Below are positions 13,282 to 33,483 of a stretch of 46,648 nt of DNA, piece after piece; positions within the stretch are counted from its first letter, which is position 1, and each line of letters starts with the position of its first letter. This stretch comes from Terriglobia bacterium (GTDB lineage Bacteria > Pseudomonadota > Alphaproteobacteria > Acetobacterales > Acetobacteraceae). The stretch lies in the NCBI GenBank assembly GCA_023511585.1, contig JAIMBF010000017.1, forward strand, positions 1 through 46,648, read 5' to 3'. A program made the translations under genes and the position numbers. The notes beneath the pieces are model-generated. The model made no database searches. It was not told the origin of the DNA and was given only the letters and a program-made list of their open reading frames with translations.

Positions 13282-14502
13282 ATGAGAGCCGAAGCCCAGC
13301 AGATTGCCGGGATTGTCATTTTCCTTCTGACCTACGCGGTGGTTGCCGTTGGCAGGCTGCCCGGGTTTCGCTTGGATCGCCCCGCCGCTGCGTTTTTCGG
13401 CGCCGCCGCGATGGTCGGCTTCGGGGTGCTTTCGCCCGCGCAGGCTTATCACGCCATCGATATGGATACGATTGCGTTACTGCTCGGCATGATGATCGTG
13501 GTGGCCTCCCTCACGCGCTCGGGCGCATTTCGGCTGATTGTGGCCTGGGCCGTTACCCGCGCGCGGCATCCGCTGCTTTTGCTGGTGGCGATCGTGCTGG
13601 CCAGCGGCGTGCTTTCCGCCTTTATGGTCAACGACACCATCTGCCTGGTGATGACGCCGTTGGTGCTGGACTTGGTGGAGCGCCTGCGGCGCCCGCCCGT
13701 GCCCTATCTGCTCGCCATCGCCATGGCCGCCAATATCGGCAGCGTGACAACAATCACCGGCAACCCGCACAATATGATTATCGGCAGCCTGTCTCATATT
13801 TCCTACGGTCGCTTTGCCGCCGCGTTGGCACCCGTTGCCGCCGTGGGGCTCGTTCTCGTGGTGGTCTTGATCGCGATCGTTTGGAAAGGCGAATTTTTTT
13901 CCACCGTGCGGATCGTTGCGGAAACGCCGAGAACGCACGCATCCGGCCCCTTGGTGCGGCTCTCCGCCTTCGTCATGCTGGCCATGGTGGCCGGTTTTTT
14001 CGCCGGGGCACCGCCCGCGGCGGTGGCCATCGTCGGCGGCGCCGTGCTGCTGGTCATCAGCCGCACCAAGCCGGAAAAATTCTATGCGGGAATCGACGGC
14101 GTACTGCTGCTCATGTTCGCGAGTCTCTTCGTTGTGGTTGCGGGCGTCGAGCACGTCGTGCTGACACCGGGTCTGATCGATGCGGTTGCCGGCCTGCATC
14201 TCGAACGCACGTGGTTGCTCACCATCGTCACGGCGGTGCTGTCGAATATCGTCAGCAACGTGCCGGCGGTGCTGGTGCTTCACCCGTTCATCAGCCGCTT
14301 GAACGATTCGGCCCATGCGTGGCTGATCGTGGCGATGGCGTCCACTCTGGCGGGCAACCTGACGCTCTTGGGATCGGTCGCCAATCTCATCGTCGCACAA
14401 CAAGCGCGTGCGCGCGGGGTGCATATCAGCCTTTGGGCCTATGCGCTGGTCGGCGTCCCTTTAACGCTTCTGACCCTCGCCGTCGGCATCGTGCTCCTTT
14501 AA
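13282..14502 (+). CDS. ArsB/NhaD/SLC13-type anion or ion transporter
   Basis: A 406-residue inner membrane protein with about ten to eleven hydrophobic segments. It has the two related motifs of the ion-transporter superfamily: SAFMVNDTICLVMTPLV with GNPHNMIIG in the first half, and SNIVSNVPAVLVLHP with AGNLTLLGSVANLIVAQQA in the second. These correspond to the paired hairpin regions of ArsB, NhaD and SLC13 carriers. The substrate cannot be read from sequence; arsenite, citrate-like anions or Na+/H+ exchange are possible. It follows the reductase by 87 bases on the same strand and precedes the acyl-CoA dehydrogenase cluster by 96 bases, so a carboxylate substrate for that cluster is conceivable. 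Confidence 0.82.
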   Translation: MRAEAQQIAGIVIFLLTYAVVAVGRLPGFRLDRPAAAFFGAAAMVGFGVLSPAQAYHAIDMDTIALLLGMMIVVASLTRSGAFRLIVAWAVTRARHPLLLLVAIVLASGVLSAFMVNDTICLVMTPLVLDLVERLRRPPVPYLLAIAMAANIGSVTTITGNPHNMIIGSLSHISYGRFAAALAPVAAVGLVLVVVLIAIVWKGEFFSTVRIVAETPRTHASGPLVRLSAFVMLAMVAGFFAGAPPAAVAIVGGAVLLVISRTKPEKFYAGIDGVLLLMFASLFVVVAGVEHVVLTPGLIDAVAGLHLERTWLLTIVTAVLSNIVSNVPAVLVLHPFISRLNDSAHAWLIVAMASTLAGNLTLLGSVANLIVAQQARARGVHISLWAYALVGVPLTLLTLAVGIVLL

Positions 14503-14598
14503 GGGCTTTAGGGCGTGGAGATATGCCGGTATTCCCCCTAGCCGAGGGCGCCTTTTCTGCCTAGTCTGCCGCGGAAAAACCCAGAGGAGATGTTCCGC

Positions 14599-15825
14599 AT
14601 GGATTTCGCATTCAGCCCGAAGGTCATGGACTTGCGTGAGCGGCTGCTCGCCTTCATGGACGAGCATATTTACCCGAATGAGAAAACGTATCGGGAACAG
14701 CAGGCGGCGGCAAAAGACCGCTGGCAGCCGGTTCCCATCGTCGAGCAGCTCAAGCCGTTGGCGCGCGAAGCCGGGCTTTGGAATCTCTTCCTGCCGCATT
14801 CCGAATACGGGGCTGGCCTCACCAATTTGGAATATGCGCCCTTGGCGGAAATCATGGGTCGCGTGCAATGGAGTTCCGAAGTTTTCAATTGTTCGGCGCC
14901 CGATACCGGAAATATGGAAACCCTCGTGCTTTACGGCACGGAGGAGCAAAAGCGGCAATGGCTGCTGCCGCTCTTGGAAGGCAAAATTCGTTCCGCTTTT
15001 TGCATGACGGAGCCGGATGTCGCCTCTTCGGATGCGACCAATATCGCCACCAGCATCCGCCGCGAGGGGGATGAATACGTCATCAACGGCCGCAAGTGGT
15101 GGTCATCCGGGCTCGGTGACCCGCGCTGCAAAATCCTGATTGTCATGGGCAAAACGGATCCCGACAACCCCGACAAGCATCGCCAACAATCCATGATTTT
15201 GGTGCCGCGCGATACGCCCGGCGTGCATGTGCAACGCATGCTGCCGGTATTCGGTTTCGACGATGCGCCGCATGGTCATGGCGAAGTGGTCTTCGATAAT
15301 GTGCGCGTGCCCGCCTCCAACATTCTTCTCGGTGAAGGCCGCGGCTTCGAAATTGCGCAGGGCCGTTTGGGCCCGGGCCGCGTGCATCACTGCATGCGCA
15401 CCATCGGCCTTGCGGAGCGCGCGCTGGAAATGACCTGCAAGCGTGCGCTCGAGCGGCATGTCTTCGGCCGCGCGCTCGCCGAGCAGGGCGTGATGATCGA
15501 ACGCATCGCCAACATGCGTATTCTGATCGATCAAGCCCGCTTGCTGGTGTTTCATGCCGCCTGGAAAATGGATACGGTCGGCAACAAAGAGGCCAGACGC
15601 GAAATTGCCGAAATCAAGGTCGCGGTGCCCAATATGGCCTGTCAGGTCATCGATTGGGCGGTGCAAGCCTTCGGCGGCGCCGGGGTCACGGAAGATTTCG
15701 GCCTTGCGGAAATGTGGAAGACCGCCCGCACCATGCGCATCGTCGATGGCCCGGACGAGGTGCATCGGCATCAGCTCGGCCGGCTCGAGCTCAGGAAGTA
15801 TCGCTCGAACCAATCCAATATTTAA
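14599..15825 (+). CDS. Acyl-CoA dehydrogenase, ACAD10/11 (LvaC-like) type
   Basis: A 408-residue FAD-dependent acyl-CoA dehydrogenase fold protein. It has the flavin-contacting [15 protein letters not shown], the WWSSG segment and the C-terminal [18 protein letters not shown] and [14 protein letters not shown]. The DGPDEVH motif is characteristic of ACAD10/11 and LvaC rather than classical fatty-acid dehydrogenases. In the lva pathway this partner acts with a kinase to remove the phosphate of a 4-phosphoacyl-CoA and form an enoyl-CoA, rather than carrying out ordinary dehydrogenation. GAGGAG (14584-14589) sits nine bases before the ATG at 14599; the earlier ATG at 14590 abuts the site directly and is unlikely. 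It is the first gene of a four-gene cluster. Confidence 0.9.
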
Positions 15826-15840
15826 AGCAAGGAGGGCCCG

Positions 15841-16308
15841 ATGAGCGAAGGCCGTCGTCCTTCGGTAAGCTTGCGACAAATCAAAGACTATCAATTTTCC
15901 ATTGATTTCGGTGCAGGCATTCCTCCATTGCTGGCGGACGAGAGCGCGCCGCTCGGCAGCGGCGCCGGTCCTTCTCCGGTACAGCTTTTGCTCGCGGCCG
16001 TGGCCAATTGCATGAGCGATAGTCTTTACTTTGCCATGCGCAAATTTCATCAAGACCCGAAAGGGATTCAAACCAACGCAACGGCAAGCGTCGGCCGCAA
16101 CGAAAAAGGCCGCTTGCGCGTACAAGAAATCACCGTGAATATCGGTTTCGAGGCCAAAGCCGAAGAGATCGAACACCTGGACCGAATCCTCAACCAATTC
16201 GAGGATTTCTGCACCGTCGGGCAGAGCGTGCGCGCCGGCATTGCCACTACCGTTATCGTTTCTGACGGCACCGGCAAGGAACTCCACAAGACCAGCGGCA
16301 AGGCATGA
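15841..16308 (+). CDS. OsmC-like protein
   Basis: A 155-residue OsmC/Ohr family protein. It has the two active cysteines expected of a thiol peroxidase, Cys57 in AVANCMSDSL and Cys124 in EDFCTVGQSV, and the strand ITVNIGFEA between them. OsmC proteins reduce organic or inorganic peroxides with Cys pairs, though many members have no tested substrate. It has a strong AAGGAGG just upstream and sits between the ACAD gene (15-base gap) and the SDR gene (13-base gap), so it is almost certainly co-transcribed with them. It could handle peroxidised acyl substrates or act as a bystander; the sequence does not decide. Confidence 0.85.
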   Translation: MSEGRRPSVSLRQIKDYQFSIDFGAGIPPLLADESAPLGSGAGPSPVQLLLAAVANCMSDSLYFAMRKFHQDPKGIQTNATASVGRNEKGRLRVQEITVNIGFEAKAEEIEHLDRILNQFEDFCTVGQSVRAGIATTVIVSDGTGKELHKTSGKA

Positions 16309-16321
16309 GGGAAAATCAGCC

Positions 16322-17110
16322 ATGACACACTCCTCGCTTTTCGATCTTCATGGCAAAGTCGCGGTGGTGACGGGCTCCTCGCGCGGCATCGGGCGCGCAA
16401 TTGCCGAACGCTTGGCCGAGCATGGGGCGAAAGTGGTGGTTTCCAGTCGCAAAGCGGAGATGTGCGAAAAAGTGGCGGAAGGGATCCGCAGCAAGGGCGG
16501 GGAGGCCATCGTCATTCCCTGCCACATTGCGCATAAGGAACAACTCCGCGCGCTTGTCGAGGGCACGCTCGCGCATTGGGGCGGAATCGATATCCTGGTC
16601 TGCAACGCAGCCGTTAATCCGTATTTCGGCCCCTCGGCGGGAATCTCCGATGAAGCCTACGACCGCATCATGAACGCCAACGTGCGCAGCAATTTCTGGC
16701 TTTGCAACATGGTCCTGCCGATCATGGCGGAACGCGGCGGCGGTTCCATCATCGTCATTTCCTCGATCGGCGGTCTGCGCGGCTCGCCTTGGCTTGCCGT
16801 CTACGGGCTTTCCAAAGCAGCCGATATGCAGCTTGTGCGCAACATCGCCGTGGAATGGGGGCCGAAAAACATCCGCGCCAACTGCATCGCACCCGGCCTG
16901 ATCCGCACCGATTTTGCCCGCGCGCTTTGGGAAAACCCGGAGTTCGAACGCAAGCGCGCGGCGGAAACACCGCTCGGCCGTATCGGCGAGCCCGACGAAA
17001 TCGCCGGCGCCGCGGTCTTTCTCGCGTCTCAAGCCGCATCTTTCATGACCGGCCAAACCATGGTGATCGATGGCGGCGTGACCATCGGCACGCCGATGGG
17101 CGCGGAGTGA
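16322..17110 (+). CDS. Short-chain dehydrogenase/reductase (possible LvaD-like role)
   Basis: A 262-residue classical SDR. It has the nucleotide motif TGSSRGIG (17-24), NAA (95-97) and the catalytic Ser148, Tyr161 and Lys165 (YGLSK). An Arg at position 21 within the glycine motif and the SSRK that follows strand two fit NADP(H) preference, which is inference. The C-terminal FMTGQTMVIDGG is typical of FabG-like enzymes. In the lva pathway the SDR partner reduces a 4-ketoacyl-CoA to the 4-hydroxyacyl-CoA; the same could apply here, but many SDRs have this outline. A frame open upstream to 16241 overlaps the OsmC gene and is not used. Confidence 0.9.
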   Translation: MTHSSLFDLHGKVAVVTGSSRGIGRAIAERLAEHGAKVVVSSRKAEMCEKVAEGIRSKGGEAIVIPCHIAHKEQLRALVEGTLAHWGGIDILVCNAAVNPYFGPSAGISDEAYDRIMNANVRSNFWLCNMVLPIMAERGGGSIIVISSIGGLRGSPWLAVYGLSKAADMQLVRNIAVEWGPKNIRANCIAPGLIRTDFARALWENPEFERKRAAETPLGRIGEPDEIAGAAVFLASQAASFMTGQTMVIDGGVTIGTPMGAE

Positions 17111-17116
17111 TCAACC

Positions 17117-18175
17117 ATGGCAGGCCAGCCGATCGGCCAGCCAGAGCTCGTTCCGGTCCTGCCCAATCATCGCTTCGATGAGGCGGCGCTGGAGCGATAT
17201 TTGGCAGAACATTTGCCGGGCTTTCGCGGCGGGCTCCGCGTGCGCCAGTTTCAAGGCGGCCAATCGAACCCGACATTTCACTTGGAAACCGAAAACGGGG
17301 CCTATGTGCTCCGCAAGAAACCGCCCGGCAAATTGTTGCCTTCCGCGCATGCGGTCGATCGCGAATTTACCGTCCTGAAAGCGCTTGCCGCAACCGGCGT
17401 GCCGGTGCCGCGCGTGCACTTGCTCTGCACGGATGAAAGCGTGATCGGGCAGATGTTCTATATCATGGATTACATACCGGGGCGCGTGTTTGCCGATCGT
17501 TTGTTGCCCGGCCTTTCGCCCGCCGAACGCGCCGCCATGCATGACGATATGAACCGTGTTTTGGCGGTGTTGCATCAAGTGGATTGGCGTGCCGTCGGGC
17601 TGGAAGGGTTCGGCCGCCCGGAGGGTTATTTTGCGCGCCAAATCGCGCGTTGGACCAAACAATATCTCGCCGCGCGCACCGAAGATGTTCCGGCCATGGA
17701 AAAACTCATGGCCTGGCTTGCCGAGCGGCCGCCGCCGCCCGACGAAGCGGTGATCGTGCATGGTGATTATCGGCTCGGCAATTTGCTCTTCCATCCCTCC
17801 GAGCCGCGGGTGGTTGCCGTTTTGGACTGGGAGCTTTCCACCATCGGCCATCCTTTGGCGGATTTGGCTTACAACGTCTTGACCTATCGCTTGCCGGAAT
17901 CCGCAGGCGGCGCGCCGGAAGCCGCGCTTGTGGCGTTGGGCGTTCCCTCGGAAGCCGAATACGTGGCGCAATATTGTGCGCGCACGGGGCGCGAAAACGT
18001 TCCCGATCTGGAATATGCGATCGTCTTCTCCATGTTCCGCCTTGCCGCAATCCTGGCCGGCGTCTATCGACGCGGCTTGGACGGAAACGCCGCCGATGCC
18101 CGCGCGATTGCGCGCGGTGTGGCGTTTCGCGAAACCGCCGAACGGGCCTGGGCTTTCGCACAAGCCTTGGATTGA
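17117..18175 (+). CDS. Aminoglycoside phosphotransferase-fold kinase (ACAD10/11 kinase domain, LvaA-like)
   Basis: A 352-residue kinase-fold protein that closely follows the N-terminal kinase domain of human ACAD10/11 and LvaA. It has the nucleotide-binding lysines in YVLRKKPPG (63-71), the catalytic loop VHGDYRLGNLLFHP with Asp217 and Asn222, and the metal-binding AVLDWELSTIGHPLADLA with Asp237. The family phosphorylates the 4-hydroxyl of acyl-CoAs so that the ACAD partner can eliminate phosphate. The ATG is six bases after the SDR stop, and GGAG lies ten bases upstream. It ends the cluster; the next gene is convergent. A choline-type or antibiotic substrate is less likely given the neighbours. 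Confidence 0.9.
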   Translation: MAGQPIGQPELVPVLPNHRFDEAALERYLAEHLPGFRGGLRVRQFQGGQSNPTFHLETENGAYVLRKKPPGKLLPSAHAVDREFTVLKALAATGVPVPRVHLLCTDESVIGQMFYIMDYIPGRVFADRLLPGLSPAERAAMHDDMNRVLAVLHQVDWRAVGLEGFGRPEGYFARQIARWTKQYLAARTEDVPAMEKLMAWLAERPPPPDEAVIVHGDYRLGNLLFHPSEPRVVAVLDWELSTIGHPLADLAYNVLTYRLPESAGGAPEAALVALGVPSEAEYVAQYCARTGRENVPDLEYAIVFSMFRLAAILAGVYRRGLDGNAADARAIARGVAFRETAERAWAFAQALD

Positions 18176-27723: not shown

Positions 27724-27813
27724 ACAAATTTCAATCATAGGTTGCGAAATTGACCTTTGCTTAACCTTTAATTGATAGACCGGCAGAACCCCGTCAGAAA
27801 ACGTCTGCCGATC

Positions 27814-30800
27814 ATGTCCGCAACCGTAAAGGACTATTGGCTTGCCGGCTCCGGTTCATGGAGTACGGCCGCGAACTGGAGCGCCGGCGTCCCCGGCGCG
27901 AACCAGGCGGCGGTTTTTCCGGGTAGCGCAACGCTGACCGTCGGCTTTTCCATCACCGACAGCATCGCCCTGCTGCTCGATTCCGGCGATCCGGCACTCA
28001 CGCTGGCGCTCTCCGCCGGCACCTTGGCGCTGGCCGATGGCGGGGCGTTCAGCGGAACCATCAGCCAAACCGGCGGCACGCTGGCGCTGAACGGCGGTCT
28101 GCTGGAAGTCGCCGGGCCCTACACCGCCTCCGGCGGAGCGCTGCAAATCGCTTCCGGCGCCACCTACGACCTACTCGCCGATGTGCCGTTAACGGGCGGG
28201 TTCATCAACAACGCGGGGGTGTTGGAAAAAACCGGCAGCACCGGCATCAGCACGCTTTCCGGCACGCTGAAAGATACCGGCACCATCACGGTGGCCGAAG
28301 GCACGCTGGACTTTACCTCCGGCACGGCCACACTCAGCGGTCCCTTGGAGGGTGGGGGTGAATTCGAAATCACCGGCGGCACCGTTACCCTTGCCGCCGG
28401 GGCCACGCTCGGCGTCGGCACACTCGCCGCTTTCGGCTCGGGCACGGACCTCGTGCTCACCAGCAGTTTTTCGGATTCCGGCGCGTTTGAGCTCGGCCAG
28501 TTCGCCACGCTCTCTCTGGGCGGCAAGACCTTCACCGCTCTCGGTCCGGTGGTTTTGGCGGGCACCGTGCTGCCCTACGGCACGCTGGATCTCGCCGGCA
28601 ATGCCGAAATCATCGGCGCCACCGTCAACCCCGGCGTGGTGCTGCAAGATGCCGGAACCGTCACGCAGCCCGGCTCATTGACGCTCGGCAATTCCAGCGG
28701 CGGAACAACACGGCTCAACATCAACTCCGGCGCCGTTTACACGCTCGAAGGCAGCGCCGTGATCAACGGTTATTCTTCGGCAAGCGTTCTGAACGCGGGC
28801 ACGCTTGCCGTTGCCGGCGGAGAGGCATCCGCGCCGGCGATCGGCGCCGCTTTCTCCAATTCCGGAACCATCTCCGTAGCCGCCGGCACGCTGGATCTCG
28901 GCGGGCCGACAATAACCTTGGGCGGCGTGGTCACCGGCGCCGGCACGCTGGTCTTGGGCGGCAATACCATCAACCTCGCCGCGGGGCTCACCGCCGCGGT
29001 TGGCGGTCTCGTTCTCAACGGCATCAACAGCACGGCAACGCTCTCGGAGAACTTGCCGTATTCGGGCGCTTTCGTGCTCGGCGCCGGCGTGCCGCTCTAC
29101 GGCGAGGGCCATACCTTAACCCTCTCCGGCAGCGCCACGCTTGCGGGGAAGTTTGTCGGCTCCGGCACGCTGGCCGTTTCCGGCGCGGCCGAGATCGGCG
29201 GCTTTACCCTCGCCGCCGGCGCAACGCTCGCCGATAGCGGCACCATCGGCCAGGACAGCAATATCTTTCTCGGCACCACGACATCCGATACCGCAACCTT
29301 GGCGATCGCATCCGGCGGAGGTTGGAATATCCGCGATGATGCCAGCATTCTCGGCACCGCGAACACCGTCATCAACAATGCCGGCCAGCTTGCCAAGCTC
29401 GGTTTGGCCGGAACGAGCCTTCTGAATGCGAAACTTCAGAACAGCGGAACGGTCCTCGTCGCCGCGGGCACCCTGGAACTCGGCCAATCCGTCACCAACA
29501 CTGCGCTTATCAGCGTGGCGGAAGGCGAGCTCATCACAGAGGGCGCGGTCTCTGCGAGCTCGGGCCAAAGCGGCAGCATTTCGCTCGGCAATAATGCCAC
29601 ACTTGCGGTTTTTGCCTCGATCGCCCCGCAAGAGACGATCGCCTTCGCCGGCACCGCGGATCTTTTGCAACTCCATGCCCCGGGGCAGTTCGGCGCCGCC
29701 GTTACCGGCTTCGGCGTCGGGGATACCATCGATCTTCCGGGCTTGATAGCCAACAGCTTCAGCTATACCGCCGGCACGCTCACACTCTTCGATACCATCG
29801 GCACCACCGTCACCACGGTGGCCAGTCTCGCGCTCCCGGGGCTTGCCAATCCCTCGTCCCTCGCGCTGCTGGCCGATGGGCAAGGCGGAACCGAGCTGGT
29901 TTTGAATCATTCCGGCCCCGCCTACAGCGGCCCCACGCAAACGATTACGGGGGCGACATGGGAAGCGGCAAGCGGCAGCTGGACGCTCGCTTCCAACTGG
30001 CTGGAAACCGGCGGGGCGAGCAGCGTGCCCGGTGCTGCCAATTCCGTGCTGGTGCCGACGCAAAGCGGCGCCACCATCAGCTATGACACCACCGATACCA
30101 TCGCATCCTTGCAAGGCGGCGCCGGCAGCACGTTGGCCATCACCGGCGGCAGCTTGGTGATCGAAGGGGGCGGCACCTGGAGCGGCGCGCTCAGCCTCGG
30201 CGCGGGCCTTTTCGATGCGGTCAGCGGGCTTGCGTTCGCCGGCCCGGTGGTCGCCGCCAATGCGACAACGCTGGAGGTCGATAGCGGCACCTTATCCCTC
30301 AACGGCGGCACTCTCGCCGGTACATTGACAGGCGCGGGAGAGGCGTTGGTCGCCGGGTCGAACGTGCTCACTTTAGCGTCGGGGTTTTCCGATTCCACGG
30401 CCACGCTGGTGGTGGGCTCGGGCAGCGGTTCGCTGGCCCTGGCCACCTCGCTCGCATTCGGCGGGGTCTTTGAACAAACGAACACCGCAGGACCGGCGGA
30501 GACAATTTTCCTAGGCGGCAACACGCTCACCTTGAGCGGGCTTTCCACCTTGGCCGGGCCGGTGGCGGGCTCCGGCCTTTTGGATCTCACCGGCAACTCC
30601 GTTTGGAACGGATTGACCGCAGCAAGCGGCGTGAGCATCGCGGATCTCGGCACGGTGACCGTCGCGGGCTCGGCAAGCCTTGGCGGGCCGGCAAGCATCG
30701 CTGCCGGCGCAAGCCTCAACATCGCTGCCGATATCACGCTTTCCGCCGCAACGCTCAGCAATGCCGGCCTCTTGGAAGCTACCGATGAGGCGTTGCAATC

Positions 30801-33483
30801 CGTCCTCGCCGCGCCCTTGCAAAGCACCGGCACTATTCTCTCCCAGGCCGGAACGCTCACCCTCGGCGGTTCGGGGGCCGATAGCCTGGCCGGCGCCTTG
30901 CAAGGTGCAGGGGCCATTGCCTTGGCCGCTCAGGGAAACACCACCCTCGCGCCGGGGCTTTCGCTGAGCGTGGCAAATCTCGAGCTCGCAGGCGGTGAGA
31001 TTTTTCTGCAAAGCGCGGAAAGCTTCGGCGGCGCATTTTCGCTCGGCCCCTATGCCACGCTCGCGCTCGGCGGAGAGACACTCTCGCTTTCCGGCAACGC
31101 CGCCTTGAACGGAACGCTCACCGCTGCGGGTTCGTTGGTGGTCGGTGCGAGCGCGGATGCCAACGGCCTGGCGCTCTCGGGCCCAGCCAATCTTGTTGAT
31201 GCCGGAACAATCACCCAGGACGGCATGGTCAGCCTCGGGCTCGGCAGTTCCGATTCGCCGCAACTGCAAATCCTCGCCGGCGCCGGCTACGAAATCGTGG
31301 ATGACACCAATCTGTTGGGTGCAGGCTCCGGTGCGATCGTCAACAATGGCCTGTTCGCCAAAACCGGCACCGGCGGCGTCAGCTATGTCACGGCCCAATT
31401 CACAAATTCGGGAACGCTCAACGTAGCATCGGGCACGCTTGCCCTGCAGGGCACGCGCAACAGCCTCGGCGGCACCATCGAAGGACCGGGGCAGCTGGTC
31501 ATCGCCGCCCCGGTCTCCGCCACGTTGCAGCCGGGCGTCGTGCTTTCGGTGGCCACCTTCGAGGCCGCCGGCGGCGCCGCACTCACGCTTACCGCCAACG
31601 AAACCTATGCAGGCAACTTCGTTCTCGGCCAGGGCGCAACCGTCAATCTCGCCGCGCATACGCTCTCCGTGACCGGCCCGAGCGCGCTGCAAGGGCTTGT
31701 GATGGGCTCCGGCGCCTTGAGCGTGAGCGGCTCTGCCGAAGCAAACGGGTTGCAGATCGGCGGCGGTGGCACCATTTCGCTGGCCGGCAGTTTGCTGGCC
31801 GATGGCGATGTCACGCTCGGCACCGGCAGCGATGTCGGTATTCTCGATATCCTCGCCGGCGGAACCTACACGCTGCTCAGTGATAACGGAATTCTGGCCG
31901 ACGGCAGCACGATCCTCAACAATGCCGGGCTTTTGCAAAAAATCGGCGCGCTCGGCACCAGTTCCATCACCGTTCCCCTCGACAATACCGGCACGATTTT
32001 CGCCACCAACGGCACTTTGGCATTGCTCGGAAATGTCTGGAACGATGCCACGATCGCATCGGAAGGCGGCACCGTGACCATCGGCTCTACTCTGGTCGCC
32101 GATAGTTCCAAGACCGGAACGGTGTTGATCAACGGCGGTGAGGTTTTACTGCAGCAAGGCGCCGCCAGCTCACAGACGATCGGGTTCGGCGCTGCCGGCG
32201 GCACGCTCGCGCTTGCCAAGCCGAATACCGTGCTCGGCACAATCAACGGATTTTCCGCGGGCAATACCATAGACTTGGTGAACCTCGGCTTCGCGCCGGC
32301 AAACGAAAGCGTGACATGGCAAGCGGGCACCCTGAGCGTGACCAATTTGGGCACGCTCGCCGCGGTCTTGAACGTTCCCGGAAATTTCTCTGCAAATTCC
32401 TTTACCCTCGTTGCCGACGGCACCGGCGGCACGGATATCGTCACCTCCGTTCCGTGTTTCGCGGAAGGAACACGCATTGCCACGCCAAAGGGCATGCGCC
32501 CGGTGGAAGCACTTGATGTCGGTGAGAGCGTTCTTACGGCAAACGGGCAACAGCGGCAGATTATTTGGATCGGGAAACGTTGGGTGGACTGTCGGCGCCA
32601 TCCCGAGCCCGAAAAAGTCTTTCCGGTGCGCATTCGTGCCGGTGCCTTCGGGCCGCATCTGCCGGCAGAGGACGTGCTGCTCTCGCCCGATCACGCGGTC
32701 TGGGCGGAAGGCGTGTTGATTCCGGTCCGGCATTTGATCAACGGCGTCAGCATTCGCCGGGAGCATCAACAGCAGATCTGTTACTACCATATCGAGCTGG
32801 CTTCCCACGAGCTTTTGCTCGCGGAAGGGCTTGCCGTGGAAAGTTATCTCGATTGCGGCAATCGGCATCAGTTTGAAGGCGGCGGCATCGGCCTCGCGCT
32901 GCATGCCGATTTCGCACCCGTTACGGCACGAACCGGCCTTGCCCCGCGCATCACTGCCGGCGCGCCGTTGCACCGCGCCAAAGCGCGGCTATTTGCGGTA
33001 CTCCGCGGCCGCGGTTGGCGGGTGGTGGAATCCACCGATCTGCAAATTGTGGCGGGCTTGCACCGGCTTTCCCCTGTTTCCCGCCACCGGAACACGCTGC
33101 GGTTTCTGGTTCCTGGGGGAAGCTCGCGCTTATGGGTTCTCTCCGAGCGTTTCGTGCCCGCCGAGGTTTCCGCCGAAGCCGAAGACGAACGCATCCTCGG
33201 CGTGGCGATCTCTGAAATTTTCGTGGATGGGCATCCCGTGCCGTTGAACGCCGCGGTTTTTGGCCGTGGGTTTTATGCGCTGGAGGAAAGCGAAGTCGGC
33301 AGCTGGCGCTGGACAAGCGGAAGCGGCGAATTTCTCCTGGGGCAGAACGCGCCCGCGCACCCCTTCACGCTCGATCTCGTCATTCAGGCGTTTCCGCGTC
33401 GATGGGATCAAAGGCCGGCATTACCGGCCTTTGATCCGTCTGCCCCCTCCATCGCGTCGCGCCGCGAGGCGGTTGGCGCTTGA
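27814..33483 (+). CDS. Giant repeat-rich surface protein with C-terminal Hint domain
   Basis: A 1889-residue Ala/Gly/Thr/Ser/Leu-rich protein, probably a beta-helix. It has two blocks, each opening with a W-x6-W-x5-W module (Trp9/16/22 and Trp716/723/729). Each then carries three copies of a repeat about 195 residues long, marked by NAG-L...NsGTi.va.GTL (landmarks at 130, 324, 519 and 979, 1175, 1366), and closes with a GxxxDTIDLxxL segment. The Hint_2 domain begins at Cys1548 (CFAEGTRI), includes His1627 (SPDHAVW) and ends near CGNR (1681-1684). A 200-residue tail follows. Hint domains can self-cleave, as in Hedgehog and inteins. There is no obvious signal peptide. The start is the ATG at 27814; a TTG at 27772 is an alternative. 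Confidence 0.88.
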   Translation: MSATVKDYWLAGSGSWSTAANWSAGVPGANQAAVFPGSATLTVGFSITDSIALLLDSGDPALTLALSAGTLALADGGAFSGTISQTGGTLALNGGLLEVAGPYTASGGALQIASGATYDLLADVPLTGGFINNAGVLEKTGSTGISTLSGTLKDTGTITVAEGTLDFTSGTATLSGPLEGGGEFEITGGTVTLAAGATLGVGTLAAFGSGTDLVLTSSFSDSGAFELGQFATLSLGGKTFTALGPVVLAGTVLPYGTLDLAGNAEIIGATVNPGVVLQDAGTVTQPGSLTLGNSSGGTTRLNINSGAVYTLEGSAVINGYSSASVLNAGTLAVAGGEASAPAIGAAFSNSGTISVAAGTLDLGGPTITLGGVVTGAGTLVLGGNTINLAAGLTAAVGGLVLNGINSTATLSENLPYSGAFVLGAGVPLYGEGHTLTLSGSATLAGKFVGSGTLAVSGAAEIGGFTLAAGATLADSGTIGQDSNIFLGTTTSDTATLAIASGGGWNIRDDASILGTANTVINNAGQLAKLGLAGTSLLNAKLQNSGTVLVAAGTLELGQSVTNTALISVAEGELITEGAVSASSGQSGSISLGNNATLAVFASIAPQETIAFAGTADLLQLHAPGQFGAAVTGFGVGDTIDLPGLIANSFSYTAGTLTLFDTIGTTVTTVASLALPGLANPSSLALLADGQGGTELVLNHSGPAYSGPTQTITGATWEAASGSWTLASNWLETGGASSVPGAANSVLVPTQSGATISYDTTDTIASLQGGAGSTLAITGGSLVIEGGGTWSGALSLGAGLFDAVSGLAFAGPVVAANATTLEVDSGTLSLNGGTLAGTLTGAGEALVAGSNVLTLASGFSDSTATLVVGSGSGSLALATSLAFGGVFEQTNTAGPAETIFLGGNTLTLSGLSTLAGPVAGSGLLDLTGNSVWNGLTAASGVSIADLGTVTVAGSASLGGPASIAAGASLNIAADITLSAATLSNAGLLEATDEALQSVLAAPLQSTGTILSQAGTLTLGGSGADSLAGALQGAGAIALAAQGNTTLAPGLSLSVANLELAGGEIFLQSAESFGGAFSLGPYATLALGGETLSLSGNAALNGTLTAAGSLVVGASADANGLALSGPANLVDAGTITQDGMVSLGLGSSDSPQLQILAGAGYEIVDDTNLLGAGSGAIVNNGLFAKTGTGGVSYVTAQFTNSGTLNVASGTLALQGTRNSLGGTIEGPGQLVIAAPVSATLQPGVVLSVATFEAAGGAALTLTANETYAGNFVLGQGATVNLAAHTLSVTGPSALQGLVMGSGALSVSGSAEANGLQIGGGGTISLAGSLLADGDVTLGTGSDVGILDILAGGTYTLLSDNGILADGSTILNNAGLLQKIGALGTSSITVPLDNTGTIFATNGTLALLGNVWNDATIASEGGTVTIGSTLVADSSKTGTVLINGGEVLLQQGAASSQTIGFGAAGGTLALAKPNTVLGTINGFSAGNTIDLVNLGFAPANESVTWQAGTLSVTNLGTLAAVLNVPGNFSANSFTLVADGTGGTDIVTSVPCFAEGTRIATPKGMRPVEALDVGESVLTANGQQRQIIWIGKRWVDCRRHPEPEKVFPVRIRAGAFGPHLPAEDVLLSPDHAVWAEGVLIPVRHLINGVSIRREHQQQICYYHIELASHELLLAEGLAVESYLDCGNRHQFEGGGIGLALHADFAPVTARTGLAPRITAGAPLHRAKARLFAVLRGRGWRVVESTDLQIVAGLHRLSPVSRHRNTLRFLVPGGSSRLWVLSERFVPAEVSAEAEDERILGVAISEIFVDGHPVPLNAAVFGRGFYALEESEVGSWRWTSGSGEFLLGQNAPAHPFTLDLVIQAFPRRWDQRPALPAFDPSAPSIASRREAVGA
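33405..33437 (+). repeat. Perfect 14-bp inverted repeat inside the 3' end of the Hint gene
   Basis: GGATCAAAGGCCGG (33405-33418) and CCGGCCTTTGATCC (33424-33437) are exact complements around CATTA. The hairpin ends 44 bases before the stop codon. It is not followed by a T-run, so a simple terminator is unlikely. It could stabilise the 3' end or slow ribosomes. Confidence 0.85.

Follow-up and report, generated by a model that had tools for sequence, protein, structure and literature searches.

We examined a 46,648-nucleotide stretch of DNA from an alphaproteobacterium of the family Acetobacteraceae (GenBank assembly GCA_023511585.1, contig JAIMBF010000017.1; the whole stretch is hereafter the window), in which four neighboring genes run along the forward strand. 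They encode an acyl-coenzyme A (acyl-CoA) dehydrogenase (ACAD; 14590..15825), an OsmC-family protein (15841..16308), a short-chain dehydrogenase/reductase (SDR; 16322..17110), and a kinase of the APH fold (17117..18175). Based on sequence comparison, we put a probability of roughly 80% on the cluster being a bacterial module of the ACAD10/11 type that serves 4-hydroxy acids and into which a stray OsmC gene has been inserted.

The four co-directional genes and the intergenic gaps of 15, 13, and 6 bases, first described in a sequence-only reading of the window, were confirmed by the listing of open reading frames (ORFs). The protein features named in that reading are likewise present: the ACAD carries DGPDEVH from residue 386, the kinase carries VHGDYRLGN, and the OsmC-like protein has exactly two Cys residues, Cys57 and Cys124. 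All four window proteins exceed the cut-offs of their own Pfam families (acyl-CoA dehydrogenase domains, OsmC, SDR, and APH), with OsmC scoring 43.8 bits against a cut-off of 27.5. The ACAD ORF contains two in-frame ATG codons, at 14590 and 14599; the latter, also taken as the start in the sequence-only reading, is the likelier one, because most homologue alignments begin at residue 3 or 4.

Kinase, dehydrogenase, and their recurring neighborhood

Among solved structures, phmmer ranks 4hr3 first for the ACAD (499 bits), followed by three ACAD11 chains (470-480 bits); MCAD scores 165 bits. Identity to ACAD11 chain 8v3u is approximately 54% over 398 residues. In the excerpts of PMC12440821 that bear on this family, R626, the HCMR motif, and D753 (mouse ACAD11 numbering) are described as conserved across ACAD10/11 and LvaC. 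The window ACAD aligns Arg259, His267-Cys-Met-Arg270, and Asp386 with R626, H634-C-M-R637, and D753 of ACAD11. Chains 8v3u and 8v3v were taken to be the mutated mouse ACAD11 chains of the same paper, as they carry both substitutions described in those excerpts, Ala at the catalytic Asp of the kinase in 8v3u and Asn at the catalytic Asp position (D753) in 8v3v. At these six positions, RHCMRD is found in 108 of the 109 matches with at least 50% identity (RHSMRD in the remaining one) and in none of the five matches, from four genes, below 50%; matches shorter than 251 residues were left out of this count, and some genes were counted repeatedly owing to overlapping loci. We assign the window ACAD to the ACAD10/11-LvaC type, with a predicted phosphate-removing activity on 4-phosphoacyl-CoA.

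The nearest solved relatives of the kinase are 3dxp and ACAD11, and its identity to the kinase domain of ACAD11 is approximately 49% (155/319). Since LvaA shares 29% identity with the kinase domains of ACAD10/11 according to the quoted part of PMC11342911, the window kinase is placed by sequence on the ACAD10/11 side, as a kinase of the ACAD10/11 kinase-domain type. Catalytic Asp217, Asn222, Arg174, and Arg82 are all in place. The residues used as criteria, as given in excerpts of PMC12440821, were D220, N225, R176, and an Arg that adjoins the Glu of helix C; the published number for this Arg, R86, does not match the hand-counted chain numbering, and the Arg was chosen by its position next to that Glu. 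The window genome encodes a second kinase of the same type, 50% identical (L134:8812-9759, equivalent to G000:C142:44811-45752), with no ACAD match within the surrounding 19 kb.

Three DHRS4 chains (3o4r, 2zat, and 5ojg) are the solved structures nearest to the SDR. Among the NCBIfam matches listed (25 of 234), it reaches no equivalog cut-off and one subfamily cut-off (PRK07231).

The same genes recur together. An ACAD match was found in 86 of 299 genomes of the family, window genome included, and 20 loci were taken from this search, mostly those of highest identity, with some same-genus and previously examined ones skipped and one genome (G583) added. Fourteen have the order ACAD-SDR-kinase, five have ACAD-kinase, and one (L207) has ACAD-SDR without a kinase match, its contig ending 0.9 kb further on. 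A set of 15 other loci, which excludes the window genome, is more varied: ACAD-SDR-kinase in four, ACAD-kinase in three, ACAD-kinase-SDR in one, kinase-ACAD in two, an ACAD divergent from SDR-kinase in one, and no kinase next to the ACAD in four. The ACAD-SDR-kinase order thus occurs in 18 of the 35 relatives' loci overall, and also in three loci beyond the class (L164, L165, and L166). In a sample of the phylum, whose first-look candidates were scored in part only, 85 of 299 genomes yielded an ACAD match and 87 a kinase match, again counting the window genome; outside the class, the two lie within 3 kb of each other in 22 of the 35 genomes that have both (tables read by eye). Stand-alone ACAD10/11-type kinase and ACAD genes therefore recur in the family and beyond, in many cases with this SDR lying between the two.

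Upstream, a gene for a CitMHS/ArsB-superfamily transporter (13282..14502, forward strand) ends 87 bases before the ACAD gene and may belong to the same transcription unit. It scores 219.6 bits for Pfam CitMHS, and its NCBIfam MamN/ArsB matches are far under cut-off. The transporter is syntenic in four of the 35 loci, at 73% identity in L204-L206 and 55% in L207. An AMP-binding ligase precedes it in L204 and L206, and L205 ends at a contig edge at this point. These two loci have ligase and transporter before ACAD-SDR-kinase; the window has the transporter and no ligase there. The ligase of L206 comes closest to 3-(methylthio)propionyl-CoA ligase, under the equivalog cut-off, and the best AMP-binding match in the window genome is 32% identical to it. 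Elsewhere in the window, a 1903-residue ORF spans 27772-33483.

Proposed pathway and other substrates

The core of the cluster appears to be a known kind of 4-hydroxyacyl-CoA module, for which we infer the steps from homologues. An acyl-CoA ligase encoded elsewhere in the genome would produce the CoA ester, and the SDR would reduce 4-oxo- to 4-hydroxyacyl-CoA, as LvaD does, or act on a related carbonyl. The kinase would then phosphorylate the 4-hydroxyl of the acyl-CoA, and the ACAD would eliminate the phosphate through a transient redox step of flavin adenine dinucleotide (FAD), giving a 2-enoyl-CoA for beta-oxidation. Chemistry of this kind has been demonstrated by others for homologous kinases and ACADs. 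What the window and its relatives contribute are the protein families, the diagnostic residues, the recurring ACAD/SDR/kinase neighborhood, and the upstream transporter common to close relatives.

The substrate could differ from the one proposed. The kinase and ACAD might act on another hydroxyacyl-CoA (e.g., a 5-hydroxy compound or one whose hydroxylated side chain is aromatic or terpenoid), and the SDR might serve a different substrate. The upstream transporter hints at a specific acid, as does, in two close relatives, a ligase that most resembles 3-(methylthio)propionyl-CoA ligase, with a score under the cut-off. Given that all residues tied to 4-phosphoacyl-CoA handling are present, we regard this alternative as unlikely.

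Another reading is a genuine levulinate (lva) operon from which lvaB and lvaE have disappeared; the presence of kinase, ACAD, and SDR speaks for it. The sequence-only reading had compared the genes to an lva core. In kind, this comparison stands, as the diagnostic residues are those of ACAD10/11 and LvaA/LvaC, but "ACAD10/11-type module" is a more fitting name than "lva core" because of the kinase identities given above (about 49% to ACAD11 vs 29% for LvaA, the latter from the quoted part of PMC11342911). That reading had also remarked on the missing LvaE and LvaB. For the ligase this holds, with none of the 24 AMP-binding matches of the window genome on the window's contig, whereas a missing lvaB is not unusual: excerpts of PMC6692424 describe a Pseudomonas citronellolis lva cluster that contains a histidine phosphatase gene and lacks lvaB. 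Citing Rand et al. 2017, the same excerpts place lvaABCD homologues in Alpha-, Beta-, and Gammaproteobacteria, so lva-type clusters with variable small genes inside them are already known. An lva operon in the strict sense is nevertheless quite improbable here, since the gene order is unlike lvaABCDE, the contig lacks an acyl-CoA ligase, the kinase resembles ACAD11 more than LvaA resembles ACAD10/11, and close relatives of the SDR also occur without the module.

The OsmC gene and its slot

The sequence-only reading had further proposed a possible variant pathway with a peroxide-handling or thiol step contributed by OsmC, and had made this depend on OsmC being conserved between ACAD and SDR in relatives. 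The proposal fails on that point: OsmC occupies the slot in 0 of the 20 family loci and 0 of the 15 others (0/35), leaving the window genome as the only one with this arrangement among the genomes examined. From the opposite direction, no kinase match was found near any of 80 OsmC loci, the best 80 of 133 confirmed OsmC relatives, some of them on short contigs. The only other module matches near these loci were one SDR of 38% identity (L020) and two ACADs of 24% (L026 and L030). Within the family, 14 of 299 genomes gave an OsmC match, window genome included (a partial match in G531). Eight other family genomes have both OsmC and the ACAD, on separate contigs in seven and approximately 87 kb apart in G664, and no ACAD, SDR, or kinase match lies in the 12 stretches around family OsmC genes (L224-L235).

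The neighbors of OsmC differ by lineage. In the family, they are, as named from reading the sequences, apparent gat genes (L225), an ABC transporter (L226), apparent molybdenum hydroxylase genes (L229), and a homogentisate dioxygenase (L008). Xanthomonadales-type OsmC loci have common surroundings with apparent GAPDH and pyruvate kinase genes. Neighbor counts for the 80 OsmC loci are lower bounds, as the gene caller found OsmC itself in 57 of them. A phylogenetic tree groups the window OsmC with four family genomes and two loci from metagenome-assembled genomes (MAGs) in a set of seven rows (support 99/95); the gene type therefore exists elsewhere in the family, outside the slot. Third-position GC content is 0.63 for OsmC, against 0.73, 0.75, and 0.69 for ACAD, SDR, and kinase, and is weak evidence given the 0.64 of the next gene downstream.

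As a separate observation, 21 of the 80 OsmC loci (L010-L089; e.g., L024, L026, L052, and L054) have at least one neighbor in sulfide-handling-like gene clusters. These neighbors comprise a BigR-like ArsR regulator, a Blh-like dioxygenase, a sulfide:quinone reductase-like flavoprotein, a YgaP-like membrane protein, and a sulfate permease; the BigR, Blh, and sulfide:quinone reductase scores are below the NCBIfam cut-offs, and one member was scanned per neighbor cluster.

Could OsmC nonetheless be a working part of the module, for instance by reducing lipid hydroperoxides to hydroxy acids for the kinase and ACAD, or by protecting thiols? It sits in the cluster with tight co-directional spacing, both Cys residues are conserved across its subfamily (94/94 and 93/93 rows, some of them duplicates), and excerpts of PMC11342911 place lipid peroxidation upstream of hydroxylated fatty acids. 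Yet none of the 35 relatives' loci has OsmC in the slot, 80 of 80 OsmC loci are without the kinase, and the protein falls far short of the NCBIfam cut-offs for the OsmC, Ohr, and SACOL1771 peroxiredoxins (25.7 of 166.15, 24.1 of 85.8, and 22.2 of 88.85 bits, respectively). The Glu following the helix Pro in the Ohr structure 3eer, which we take to be catalytic in Ohr, is moreover Val47 in the window protein, and Glu occurs at this position in 8 of 94 subfamily rows. A working role is on these grounds very unlikely. It is likewise very unlikely that OsmC was recruited into an ACAD10/11-type module in this lineage as a transcriptional coupling between the reduction of fatty-acid hydroperoxides to hydroxy acids and the phosphorylation of these acids and their entry into beta-oxidation.

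Three other accounts of the gene were considered and set aside. The subfamily as viral cargo found no relative by tblastn in 103 candidate viral stretches; the idea of a decayed OsmC found no match in G012, where the gap between ACAD and SDR is longer; and OsmC as a conserved fourth member is at odds with the empty slots and the absent kinases. In the literature searched, no paper mentioned both OsmC and ACAD11. Together, the comparisons make OsmC unlikely as part of a 4-hydroxy acid pathway. The gene would rather be a one-off insertion, a passenger that perhaps shares the transcript and stands outside the pathway.

Weighing the module against known systems

Several points weigh against an ACAD10/11-type module with a stray OsmC. 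The functions of the window kinase, ACAD, and SDR are predicted from sequence, and the likeness to LvaA, LvaC, and LvaD was judged from published descriptions. The kinase does not adjoin the ACAD in four of the 15 loci, and the two are apart in 13 of the 35 outside-class genomes that have both. In seven of 60 genomes (G002, G004, G007, G014, G026, G028, and G033; E-value limits of 1e-60 and 1e-80), a close SDR is present but no close ACAD, so the SDR is not exclusive to the module and probably has a role outside it; its role within the module is predicted from homologues. Finally, the insertion is seen on a single MAG contig from the sole representative of its genus that was compared, and the tight spacing may mean that OsmC is co-transcribed, which could have been selected. 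With these points counted, the module retains the probability given at the outset, and the cluster supplies alphaproteobacterial sequences for testing 4-hydroxy acid use.

Among known systems, the OsmC/Ohr family shares with the window protein an OsmC domain with two Cys residues and differs in the peroxiredoxin scores and in the Glu that is replaced by Val. The lva operon likewise clusters a kinase, an ACAD, and an SDR, but in the order lvaA-B-C-D-E and with an LvaE-type acyl-CoA synthetase, whereas the window genes run ACAD-(OsmC)-SDR-kinase, their contig carries no ligase, and the kinase is nearer to ACAD11 than LvaA is; OsmC is the sole small gene of the cluster. A search for the lva operon of P. 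putida found no kinase-small gene-ACAD-SDR order, by matches to the window proteins, in seven loci of the genus of G343, presumably Pseudomonas, in which 119 genomes gave 122 ACAD matches; the six second or third matches and the main locus of G343 were inspected. Mammalian ACAD10 and ACAD11 share the kinase and ACAD types, the diagnostic residues, and the expected two-step chemistry, but as a single chain, in contrast to the separate genes here with an adjacent SDR and transporter and an inserted OsmC. By description, a further parallel comes from Burkholderia pseudomallei, whose orthologues are a bacterial kinase and ACAD that stand alone, belong to the ACAD10/11 branch, and, according to excerpts of PMC11342911, substitute for the ACAD10 domains in vitro.

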